A stretch of 64,000 bases of DNA from Cupriavidus sp. (GTDB lineage: Bacteria; Pseudomonadota; Gammaproteobacteria; Burkholderiales; Burkholderiaceae). This document shows positions 19,636 through 34,977 of the stretch, piece after piece (positions within the stretch are counted from its first letter, which is position 1; each line of letters opens with the position of its first letter). The notes under the pieces were generated by a model. That model searched no databases and was not told the DNA's origin. It saw only the letters and a program-made list of their open reading frames with translations. A program made the position numbers and the translations under genes. The stretch lies in NCBI GenBank assembly GCA_031180665.1, contig JAPSLP010000017.1, forward strand, positions 1 through 64,000, read 5' to 3'.

Positions 19636-21171
19636 TCAGCCGCCGGTCGGCCGCTCGAACAGCGTCTCCCACATGCTGTCGACGCGGGTCCTGGTCGCCG
19701 CGTCCATCTGGATGGGACGTCCCCATTCGCGGGTGGTTTCGCCGGGCCACTTGTCGGTGGCGTCGATGCCCATTTTCGAGCCCAGCCCCGATACCGGCGA
19801 GGCGAAGTCGAGGTAGTCGATCGGCGTATTGTCGACCAGCACCGTATCGCGCGTCGGGTCGACGCGCGTGGTGATCGCCCAGATCACCTCCTTCCAGTCC
19901 CGCACGTCGACATCGTCGTCCACCACCACGATGAACTTCGTATACATGAACTGCCGCAGGAAGCTCCAGACGCCGAACATCACCCGCTTGGCGTGGCCGG
20001 CGTACTGCTTCTTCATGCGCACCACCGCCATCCGGTAGCTGCACCCTTCGGGCGGCAGATAGAAGTCGGTGATCTCGGGAAACTGCTTTTGCAGCAGCGG
20101 CACGAACACCTCGTTCAGCGCGACGCCGAGCACCGCCGGCTCGTCGGGCGGCTTGCCGGTGTAGGTGGAGTGATAGATCGGATCGCGCCGCATCGTGATG
20201 CGGTCGATGGTGAAGACCGGGAACCAGTCCTGTTCGTTGTAGTAGCCGGTGTGATCGCCGAACGGGCCTTCCAGCGCGTGCTGGTAGCCGGACGGATGCG
20301 TCGGGTCCGGCTGGATATGGCCTTCGAGCACGATCTCGGCCGAGGCCGGCACGCTCAGTTCGGACAGCGTCGGCGTCAGGCAGCCGGCCAGCGCGGTGCG
20401 GCTGCCGCGCAGCAGGCCGGCGAACTGGTATTCGGACAGCGTATCGGGCACCGGCGTCACGGCACCCAGCATCGTGGCCGGATCGGCACCGAGCGCGACC
20501 GCGATCGGGAACGGCTTGCCCGGGTTGGCCAGCGCGTGCTCGCGGAAGTCCAGGGCGCCGCCGCGGTGTGCCAGCCAACGCATGATGACCTGGTTGCGGC
20601 CGATCACCTGCTGGCGGTAGATGCCCAGATTCTGCCGCTTCTTGTGCGGGCCCTTGGTCACCACCAGGCCCCAGGTGATCAGCGGCGCGGCGTCGCCGGG
20701 CCAGCACTTCTGGATCGGCAGGCGCGCCAGATCGACGTCGTTGCCTTCCCAGACGATCTCCTGGCAGGCCGGGCTTGACACCTTCTTCGGCGCCATGTCC
20801 CACACCGACTTGACCAGCGTGAACAGCTTGCCGGCCTCGCGCAGGCCGCGCGGCGGCTCGGGTTCCTTCAGCGCCGACAGCACGCGCCCGATGTCGCGCA
20901 GATCGGCCAGCGATTCCGCGCCCATGCCCAATGCGACCCTGCGTGGTGTGCCGAACAGATTGGCCAGCACCGGCATGTCGAAAATCGCCTCACCTGCTGC
21001 CGCGGCGCCGCGCGTCGGCCTCTCGAACAGCACGGCGGGACCTTCGGCACGCAGCAGGCGATCGCAGATTTCGGTCATTTCGAGGTCCGGCGACACGGGC
21101 GCCGCGATGCGCCGCAACTCGCCCTGTTGTTCGAGTTGACCGATGAAATCGCGCAAGTCTTTGTATTGCAT
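19636..21171 (-). CDS. ubiD: 4-hydroxy-3-polyprenylbenzoate decarboxylase (UbiD)
   Basis: UbiD removes the carboxyl group from polyprenyl-hydroxybenzoate in ubiquinone synthesis, using prenylated FMN made by UbiX. The start '[22 protein letters not shown]' and the '[29 protein letters not shown]' and '[24 protein letters not shown]' blocks are diagnostic; the last carries the Glu/Asp acid network. ATG 21171 was chosen over the track's 21285 because the family begins here; the protein is then 511 aa. It is transcribed divergently from the leader RNA/transglycosylase unit. No ubiX is in the window. Confidence 0.95.
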
Positions 21172-21446: not shown

Positions 21447-21475
21447 TTGACTCGATATAAAACGATTTTTACAAT
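21447..21475 (+). promoter_or_regulatory. Strong sigma70-type promoter for the structured leader RNA
   Basis: TTGACT (21447-21452) and TACAAT (21470-21475) are separated by exactly 17 bp within an AT-rich stretch, which stands out from the GC-rich surroundings. Transcription would begin near 21481-21483, about 48 nt before the first base of the closing stem of the RNA. Confidence 0.75.
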
Positions 21476-21481
21476 CGCGTC

Positions 21482-21741
21482 TGCTCAAAGGTGTGCTGCG
21501 TTGCAACAACGAACTTTTCGATCCTGTCAAGGGGTGTAACGCAGATCACCACGTTGGATCAACCCGAGTGGACCGCTACAACGGCGGTCCCTCCGATCAC
21601 CGCTGGCAATGACCGGCGCGTCTTGAGTCTTCGCAGCAGGGCAGGCTACCCCAAGAGCCTCCTCTGCTAATCGCTGGGCGCTTGGGGAGCGCCCACCAAC
21701 AACAGATGCCGATCGCCCCTGCAAGGCGGTGCGACATCCTT
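21482..21741 (+). ncRNA. Unrecognised structured RNA leader with a predicted kissing loop
   Basis: Folded by hand, AGGGGTGT-aa-CGCA (21530-21543) pairs with TGCGACATCCTT (21730-21741) and encloses six hairpins. P2 is 21544-21560, P3 is GGACCGC/GCGGTCC (21570-21590), P4 is CGCTGG/CCGGCG (21601-21618), and P5 is 13 pairs long with one mismatch (21635-21668). P6 is TGGGCGC/GCGCCCA (21675-21695) and P7 is 21712-21729. The P5 loop contains CCCCAA (21649-21654) and the P6 loop TTGGGG (21682-21687), a perfect 6-bp loop-loop match. A further small hairpin, CGTTG-CAA-CAACG, lies at 21499-21511. No terminator separates it from the lytic transglycosylase ATG 82 nt downstream, so it looks like a 5' leader or riboswitch-like element. 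I do not recognise it as a TPP, FMN, cobalamin, c-di-GMP, SAH, 6S, tmRNA or RNase P RNA. Confidence 0.65.
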
Positions 21742-21822
21742 ACTTGACTACGTTGCCAGTGGACGGCCATGCGTGGGCGCAAGCCCTGCAGGCCCGGGAG
21801 CCGGCGGCGCATGGAGGTAAGC

Positions 21823-22935
21823 ATGAGTGGTTGGAAAACCCTTCATCTTCCCGGTGTCGGGCGGGCGTTGCAGGTCCGCTTCAGGCAACCGGTTCCCGGT
21901 GTGCGGCGTGCCCTGCAGGTTCGTCTCGCGCATCCGGTCGCGGGCCGCGCACTGCGCAGCGGTCGCGCAACGTTGAAATACGCGCTGAACAGCGCGGGTC
22001 TGATCGCGGTGGTGGCCGGTATTTCGCTGTCGATCAGCCAGGAATGGCGCACCGCGCTGGCCGGCATGCTGGCCGGCAACGAGGCGCCTGCCATTCTGCT
22101 GGAGGCGGCGACCGCGTCGGCGCCGGTCCATGCCAGCACGGCCGACGTGGCGGCTGCCAAGCTGCTGCCTGCCGTCAAGGTGCCGCCGGGCGGCGCCGCG
22201 GTGCCGCCCGTCGCGGCCGTGGGCCTGCCGAGCGTCTCGGGCGTCGGCGAGTGGGCCAATGCCAGCCAGTCGAAGGTGCCGTCGGTCGCCCATCTGGCGG
22301 CCCGTATTCCGGCCCAGCGCGTGGCCCTGGACGCGCGTTACAGCAGCACGCTGGCCAACGCACGCGAACAGGCCGCGGTGGCCGAGTACATCGCGCGCAA
22401 GTACCGCGTGGCCGCGCAGGCGACCGCGCAACTGGTCAAGGCCGCCTATCTGACCGGCCGCGAGGTCGGTATCGATCCGCTGCTGATCCTGGGCGTGATC
22501 GCGATCGAGTCCAGCTTCAATCCGTACGCGGAGAGCGGCGTGGGCGCGCAGGGCCTGATGCAGGTGATGACCAAGGTCCACCAGGACAAGTACGAGCACG
22601 TCGGCGGTGTCGCGGCCGCGCTCAATCCTTACGCCAACATCAAGATCGGTGCGCTGGTGCTGAAGGACTGCATCGCCCGCGCCGGTTCGATCGAAGGCGG
22701 CCTGAAGTACTACGTCGGCGCCACCACGGCGACCGATGGCGGCTACGGCGCCAAGGTGCTGGCCGAGCGCGCGAAGCTGCGCCAGGTGCTGGGCATCCGC
22801 GGCAACGCGCCGGCGGCCAAGCCGGACGTGATTGAGTCGCTGCCGGGTCCGTCGTCGACCAAGACGCAGGCCGAGCATACGCCCGAGCCGGAAAACTTCG
22901 AGCTCGAGGCGGCGCAGACGCCCCGCAAGGCCTGA
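21823..22935 (+). CDS. Lytic transglycosylase, SLT domain
   Basis: The C-terminal domain is an SLT fold with the catalytic Glu in 'GVIAIESSFNPYAESGVGAQGLMQVM' (about residue 230), preceded by 'AYLTGREVGIDPLL' and followed by 'NPYANIKIGALVL'. It cleaves peptidoglycan glycan strands, releasing anhydromuropeptides. Residues 55-80 form a single membrane segment ('ALNSAGLIAVVAGISLSIS'), so the enzyme is probably anchored in the inner membrane facing the periplasm. ATG 21823 (MSGWKTLHLPG) follows GGAGGTAAGC. The ATG at 21811 in the same frame overlaps that ribosome site and is less likely. The N-terminus carries Val/Arg/Gln-rich repeats ('GRALQVRFRQPVPGVRRALQVRL'). Expression is probably set by the RNA leader. 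Confidence 0.88.
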   Translation: MSGWKTLHLPGVGRALQVRFRQPVPGVRRALQVRLAHPVAGRALRSGRATLKYALNSAGLIAVVAGISLSISQEWRTALAGMLAGNEAPAILLEAATASAPVHASTADVAAAKLLPAVKVPPGGAAVPPVAAVGLPSVSGVGEWANASQSKVPSVAHLAARIPAQRVALDARYSSTLANAREQAAVAEYIARKYRVAAQATAQLVKAAYLTGREVGIDPLLILGVIAIESSFNPYAESGVGAQGLMQVMTKVHQDKYEHVGGVAAALNPYANIKIGALVLKDCIARAGSIEGGLKYYVGATTATDGGYGAKVLAERAKLRQVLGIRGNAPAAKPDVIESLPGPSSTKTQAEHTPEPENFELEAAQTPRKA

Positions 22936-33228: not shown

Positions 33229-34476
33229 TCAGCCGTAGACCGGGAAGCGCTTGGTCAGCGCCGCGACCTGCTCGCGCACGCGCGCGATGTTGTCGGCGTC
33301 GTGCGGGTTGTCCAGCACGTCGGCGATCAGGTTGGCGACCTGGCGCGCTTCCTCTTCCTTGAAGCCGCGCGTGGTCATCGCCGGCGAGCCCAGGCGGATG
33401 CCCGAGGTGACGAACGGCTTTTCCGGATCGTTGGGGATCGCGTTCTTGTTGACCGTGATATGCGCGTCGCCCAGGATCTTCTCGGCTTCCTTGCCGGTGA
33501 TCTGCTTGGCGCGCAGGTCGACCAGCATCACGTGGCTCTCGGTGCGGCCCGAGACGATGCGCAGTCCGCGTGCAATCAGGGTCTCGGCCAGCGCCTGGGC
33601 GTTCTTGACGACCTGCTGCTGATAGGCCTTGAACTCGGGCGACAGCGCTTCCTTGAAGGCGACCGCCTTGCCGGCGATCACGTGCATCAGCGGGCCGCCC
33701 TGGATGCCGGGGAAGATCGCCGAGTTGATGGCCTTCTCATGCTCGGCCTTCATCAGGATCACGCCGCCGCGCGGGCCGCGCAGGCTCTTGTGCGTGGTGG
33801 TGGTGACGAAGTCGGCGTGCGGCACCGGGTTCGGGTAGACGCCCGCGGCGATCAGGCCCGCGTAGTGCGCCATGTCGACCATGAAATAGGCGCCGACCGA
33901 CTTGGCCACCGCGGCGATGCGCTCGAAGTCGATGCGCAGCGAAAAGGCCGACGCGCCGGCGATGATCAGCTTCGGCTTCTTCTCCTGGGCCAGCTTTTCC
34001 AGCGCGCCGTAGTCGATGTCCTCGTCGGCGTTCAGGCCGTAGCTGACCACGTTGAACCACTTGCCGCTCATGTTGAGCGCCATGCCGTGGGTCAGGTGGC
34101 CGCCTTCCGCCAGGCTCATGCCCATGATGGTGTCGCCCGGCTTGAGCACGGCGAAGAACACGCCCTGGTTGGCCTGCGAGCCCGAGTTCGGCTGCACGTT
34201 GGCGGCCTCGGCGCCGAACAGCTGCTTGACGCGGTCGATCGCCAGCTGCTCGACGATGTCGACGTATTCGCAACCGCCGTAGTAGCGCTTGCCGGGATAG
34301 CCCTCGGCGTACTTGTTGGTCAGCTGCGAGCCCTGGGCGGCCATCACGGCCGGCGAGGTGTAGTTCTCGGAGGCGATCAGCTCGATATGGTCTTCCTGGC
34401 GCTGATTTTCCTGCTGGATGGCGGACCAGAGTTCGGGATCGATCTGGTCGATCGTGTAGCGGCTGCGTTCGAACAT
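33229..34476 (-). CDS. glyA: Serine hydroxymethyltransferase
   Basis: GlyA converts serine and tetrahydrofolate to glycine and 5,10-methylene-tetrahydrofolate. The PLP lysine motif is '[16 protein letters not shown]' at about residue 230, '[14 protein letters not shown]' contains the catalytic area, and the N-terminal '[25 protein letters not shown]' is invariant in the family. ATG 34476 ([13 protein letters not shown]) gives the usual 415 residues; the upstream extension in the track is not family sequence. It lies ahead of nrdR and probably shares its transcript. Confidence 0.98.
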
Positions 34477-34977
34477 GGCGAAACTCGTCTGTAGAAGGAT
34501 CGGTGAAAACCGTCGGATGACGGCGGATTGACCGAAGAATACGGGAACGGAACGACGGTAGGGCGCGCGGGGAAGACGCATGCGAACCGCGTCGCCGGTT
34601 TGGGCGCGGGGCCCGGATTGGCGGCGCAGGGCGCACCCTGCTTCCCATTCGCTGGCCCAGGCGAGCGGCAGGCGCGGCGGCTATCGCAAGGGACCGCGGC
34701 CGGGCATTGCGCCCTGGCTTCGGACCGCTTCCGGTGGCTTGGCGCCAGAGATCTTGCGCTTCCTCGTGGTAGTACCCACTGACTTCGCCAGTCGCGCAAG
34801 GTGGAATGGTTGGCCGGAGTTTACGCGAGGCCCCGGCTCGCCGCAAGCCGGCAAGGCCGCCTCGGACCGGGCCTGGCGGGGCAGGCAAGGCGGCTTCGTC
34901 TGTAGGACGGCCTGGCGTTGCGTTGTCGGACGCCGTGTGACACCGGAGCCGCGCCCGCGTCCGTTACAATCGCGGCC
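34477..34977. other. Intergenic region between divergent glyA and ybgC
   Basis: These 501 bp hold no credible gene; all frames are short or codon-biased shadows. The region must carry the promoters of both the glyA and the tol operons. TTACAAT at 34964-34970, 8 bp before the ybgC ATG, resembles a -10 box but lies very close to the start codon. No riboswitch was recognised. Confidence 0.6.

Follow-up and report, generated by a model that had tools for sequence, protein, structure and literature searches.

RNAs described at related loci

An RNA derived from the 5' untranslated region of a lytic transglycosylase gene, BTH_s13, has been described in Burkholderia thailandensis, reportedly by Stubben and co-workers. 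It was published in 2014 as the leader of the SLT gene BTH_I1527, with RACE-mapped lengths of 209-400 nt and RNA extending into SLT; it is co-transcribed with SLT, accumulates as processed species and, under several conditions, is about 10x as abundant as the coding part of SLT (PMC4035088). BTH_s13 is induced by antibiotics and its ratio to the coding part shifts with conditions; post-transcriptional control, perhaps by a riboswitch, was proposed, and trans targets were also predicted (PMC4035088). Another RNA, Bp1_Cand738 (Bp1_Cand738_SIPHT), was predicted in 2012 (PMC3521395) and is now Rfam family RF02422 (Bp1_738).

The locus analysed here belongs to a 64,000-nucleotide stretch of Cupriavidus sp. 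DNA (the window) and resembles that of BTH_s13 in having a long conserved leader with its own promoter, directly upstream of SLT on the same strand and bounded by a divergent neighbour. It appears to be the counterpart of the BTH_I1527 locus. Two differences are evident: BTH_s13 was found by expression and has no published structure, and Burkholderia leaders are not alignable in sequence to the Cupriavidus/Ralstonia-type leader, so that a function like that of BTH_s13 is transferred to it solely through the matching position. The leader also recalls translation-controlling riboswitches and other structured leaders, in that a folded 5' region lies close to a ribosome site that may be masked, and departs from them in its lack of a known ligand or aptamer class and in its narrow distribution. 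It is a real, conserved structured leader and a new sequence variant of the leader type already reported in Burkholderia. The initial annotation had called it unrecognised, which holds for the Cupriavidus/Ralstonia-type sequence, as an Rfam search at the leader matched no family and no known aptamer class, and does not hold for the locus type, reported in 2014 and overlapped by RF02422 in its Burkholderia counterpart.

Genomic context and promoter

The leader fills the gap between the divergent ubiD and the SLT gene, whose annotated start is backed by alignment (Table 1). As initially proposed, it is headed by a sigma-70-type promoter, and this promoter block is kept across the genus, the sister genus and Burkholderia-type genomes. 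The ribosome site and the ATG that follows it were likewise located where they had been placed, and a terminator search found no intrinsic terminator between leader and SLT, in agreement with the same annotation.

Table 1. Features of the SLT leader and its surroundings (positions in the window)
Feature	Position	Strand	Remarks
Divergent ubiD, upstream neighbour	19636-21165	-	PF01977, PF20695, PF20696; same neighbour in genus relatives
Sigma-70-type promoter TTGACT-17-TACAAT	21447-21475	+	Sole promoter-like match in the region vs 0.1 expected
5' leader of SLT mRNA, ~340 nt	21482-21822	+	Start predicted from the -10 box
5'-proximal short hairpin G(U/C)UGC-NNN-GCA(A/G)C	21495-21507	+	Shared by almost every genus leader; the window has a C-A mismatch
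Hairpin with invariant UGUCAA apex and variable stem (CCCACU/AGUGGG, CCCUCU/AGAGGG)	21522-21533	+	Stem interrupted in some relatives
Stem-loop P5, loop CCCCAA 21649-21654	21635-21668	+	Both-side changes in 8/12 pairs
Possible P5-P6 kissing (loop-loop) pairing, CCCC with GGGG	21649-21687	+	Loop complementarity
Stem-loop P6, loop UUGGGG 21682-21687	21675-21695	+	100% of cells pair; both-side changes in 3/6 pairs
Stem-loop P7, outer GAUGC..GCAUC-type helix, inner CGCC/GGCG helix	21705-21738	+	Absent from the initial annotation
CUUACUU, complement of AGGUAAG at 21815-21821 in the Shine-Dalgarno region	21739-21745	+	Directly after P7
Shine-Dalgarno GGAGG	21813-21817	+
SLT-domain lytic transglycosylase gene	21823-22935	+	PF01464 E=1.2e-14; ATG at 21823
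Start-codon hairpin AUGAG-U-GGUU[GGAA]AACC-C-UUCAU	21823-21846	+	Within the first eight codons; 100% of cells pair

Distribution of the leader

The leader was recovered from 36/36 searched genomes of the window's genus, and in each extracted locus it lies between ubiD and SLT. A covariance model built from P5-P6-P7 found the leader exactly once in each of 59/59 genus genomes and 16/16 of the sister genus, adjoining SLT wherever checked. Beyond these two genera, in about 600 other genomes from sets of 399 for the family and 300 for the order, the model gave a single weak, unconvincing match (E=3e-4), in another genus. The SLT orthologue itself occurs in 179/200 family genomes. Searches for plasmid and phage copies of the leader found none.

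In Burkholderia-, Paraburkholderia- and Pandoraea-type genomes the promoter is kept and the leader is of similar length; a profile search in Burkholderia-type genomes aligned the promoter block only, and covariance model R1 found no match in them. The control of an autolytic wall enzyme at the RNA level would concern one locus kept across the family, with a sequence that has turned over between genera. A divergent genus (L081, 63% SLT identity) has a longer SLT leader (L081:1232-1660). The P6 loop, a stem resembling P7 and the frozen start block described below all recur in it, but its P5 is different, and no CCCC was found in the P5 region. In three Paraburkholderia-type genomes (L144, L066 and L098) a palindrome, TGAACACTGTTCA, lies upstream of the SLT promoter and is a possible regulator site.

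Folding and covariation of the P5-P6-P7 core

The leader is more stable than its shuffled versions (z = -3.3; 0/100 shuffles as good). Covariation was assessed in two alignments, of the genus alone and of genus plus sister genus. In the core formed by P5, P6 and P7, both-side changes occur in 14/29 pairs, and paired cells make up 94.9%, a share that falls to 31-53% once the pairing is slid. Counted on the tree, double substitutions that fall on one branch and preserve a pair number 11 vs 0.98 +/- 0.92 expected, and 0/2000 controls drawn from matched columns reach 11. The compensatory base changes sought in P5 and P6 were thus found, and occur also in the additional stem P7, whose outer helix is 99.3% paired and whose inner helix has both-side changes in 3/4 pairs. 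P6 lies where a 7-bp stem had been drawn; P5 has the position ascribed to it, with 12 of its supposed 13 base pairs formed in the window and a single C-C mismatch. These data give covariation support to the structure of a leader which, in its Burkholderia counterpart, had been described solely as an expressed RNA.

The closing stem P1 (21530-21543 with 21730-21741) that had been drawn around the hairpins is not conserved and fails the covariation test that P5-P7 pass. The full set of 12/12 pairs is confined to the window and the two relatives closest to it; taken together, 56.7% of cells pair, which does not exceed shuffled or slid controls. Some 15 bases into the transcript, the element at 21495-21507 and in genus relatives (TGTTGCG-N-CGCAACA) could be a DNA palindrome or operator instead of an RNA hairpin.

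The full complementarity of the P5 and P6 loops, already remarked upon in the initial annotation, was borne out and is present in essentially all Cupriavidus/Ralstonia-type sequences, yet the loops are invariant and leave no covariation to test, so that a loop-loop contact stays a suggestion. A more ambitious proposal, regarded as improbable, is a new class of sensor RNA specific to Cupriavidus/Ralstonia-type bacteria, in which kissing P5-P6 loops together with P7 would recognise a cell-envelope signal and open up the start region of SLT.

Coding strand of the RNA

RF02422 matches a number of Burkholderia and Paraburkholderia genomes (L062-L080, L102, L130, L131, L144, L159). At the homologous SLT locus of these genomes it covers the promoter and the initial ~150-200 nt of the leader, but the model runs along the opposite strand, where it takes in the promoter of SLT as a reverse complement. 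There is no match to it in the window, and the best score in the genus is 27.3 bits (one relative) vs a gathering cut-off of 45 bits. With matches of up to 229 bits, the family would speak for a small RNA transcribed antisense to the leader. However, in the Cupriavidus/Ralstonia-type core the sense fold has 384 G-U to 41 C-A cells and the antisense fold 101 to 79; wobble pairs point to the sense strand in both the Cupriavidus/Ralstonia-type and the Burkholderia leaders, and sense-strand folding is the better fit for the latter too. In addition, RACE in B. thailandensis shows RNA running into SLT (PMC4035088), and a search for a minus-strand promoter in the window found none. An antisense RNA is thus very improbable and, to judge from sequence comparison, the RNA would act from the SLT sense strand. 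Since RF02422 lies on the opposite strand and spans the SLT promoter, and since sense folding fits better, it is suggested that this family models the same transcription unit in reverse, i.e. on the wrong strand.

Constraint at the start of SLT

The sequence GGAGGUAAG-N-AUG and the first ten codons of SLT are nearly frozen. Codons 3-10 show zero synonymous change in 39 genes, vs 23/192 comparable downstream codons that are invariant, and include rare codons such as CTT for Leu (3/220); the probability of the exact codon choice at the start, given local usage, is ~1e-7. Codons 3-8 are likewise frozen in Burkholderia-type SLT genes (L102-L181), with the rare Leu codon TTA among them.

A small RNA released from the leader by processing and acting in trans, with SLT control secondary, would agree with the accumulation of BTH_s13 as a processed, antibiotic-induced species and with its predicted trans targets (PMC4035088). 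Its probability is low given that no terminator separates leader from SLT, that the leader is single-copy per genome and at SLT where checked, and that the constraint runs on into SLT codons.

The start-codon hairpin pairs in 51/51 sequences although codon 2 varies between Ser, Asn and Asp. It can not be regarded as exceptionally stable, its stability being matched by 17.5% of synonymous codings, and the codon constraint may for this reason serve another purpose. Closer to the ribosome site, the six core pairs of CUUACU/GGUAAG form in 50-51/51 distinct sequences; the pairing is invariant and hence lacks covariation support, and in the window a thermodynamic model rates it as improbable. Both elements are candidate ways of closing the ribosome site, as predicted from conserved complementarity.

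Other pairings were considered. The initial annotation proposed that opening of P5 could free CCTCC in its 3' arm (21658-21662) to hide GGAGG, a mechanism which, like the P1 closure, fails comparative tests, CCTCC being private to the window's lineage (4/54 sequences). The Shine-Dalgarno could also pair with CCUUCAUC in the coding region, by as many as 8 pairs in most genus members, a possible alternative that is not preferred because the sister genus has a mismatch (GACGGAGG). A leader-peptide attenuator was rejected: the candidate reading frame at P7 is not kept, having 13, 6 or 34 codons in different relatives, and no intrinsic terminator precedes SLT.

Mode of action

The single copy, the association with SLT, the covarying sense-strand stems, the conserved promoter and the B. 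thailandensis counterpart support the original suggestion that the leader regulates a peptidoglycan hydrolase gene in cis. The element is probably an untranslated 5' leader of the SLT mRNA, with its own promoter, that keeps SLT translation and mRNA low by default. Transcribed from this sigma-70-type promoter and acting in cis, the leader would fold into the compact P5-P6-P7 domain, and the start-codon hairpin, possibly along with CUUACU paired to GGUAAG, would keep the ribosome site closed as the default state. Most SLT transcripts would then be poorly translated and processed, and some condition or factor may shift the balance so that more autolytic enzyme is made. Which signal tunes lytic transglycosylases thereby becomes directly testable in Cupriavidus.

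Alternatively, the structure might fix a constant low translation and mRNA half-life, also through an RNA-binding protein, with no response to a signal. A long, GC-rich, structured leader with a closed start region would suit such a role, and constrained nucleotides around the start can be of use to initiation or to a binding protein. However, the leader/coding ratio varies with conditions in B. thailandensis (PMC4035088), which suggests regulation, and a constant leader is considered unlikely. Slightly less likely still is a true riboswitch with P5-P7 as the aptamer for a ligand such as a cell-wall precursor or fragment. This possibility was raised for BTH_s13 by the authors of that study (PMC4035088) and agrees with the compact covarying core and the conserved loops; against it, no Rfam class matches, the P5 loop is not kept in the divergent L081, and the leader is limited to two related genera and one gene, unlike widespread riboswitches.

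Elsewhere in the window, a ZMP-ZTP riboswitch match (34704-34805, minus strand; 40.3 vs a cut-off of 39 bits) lies upstream of a glyA-like gene (33229-34581, minus strand), an ordinary association.
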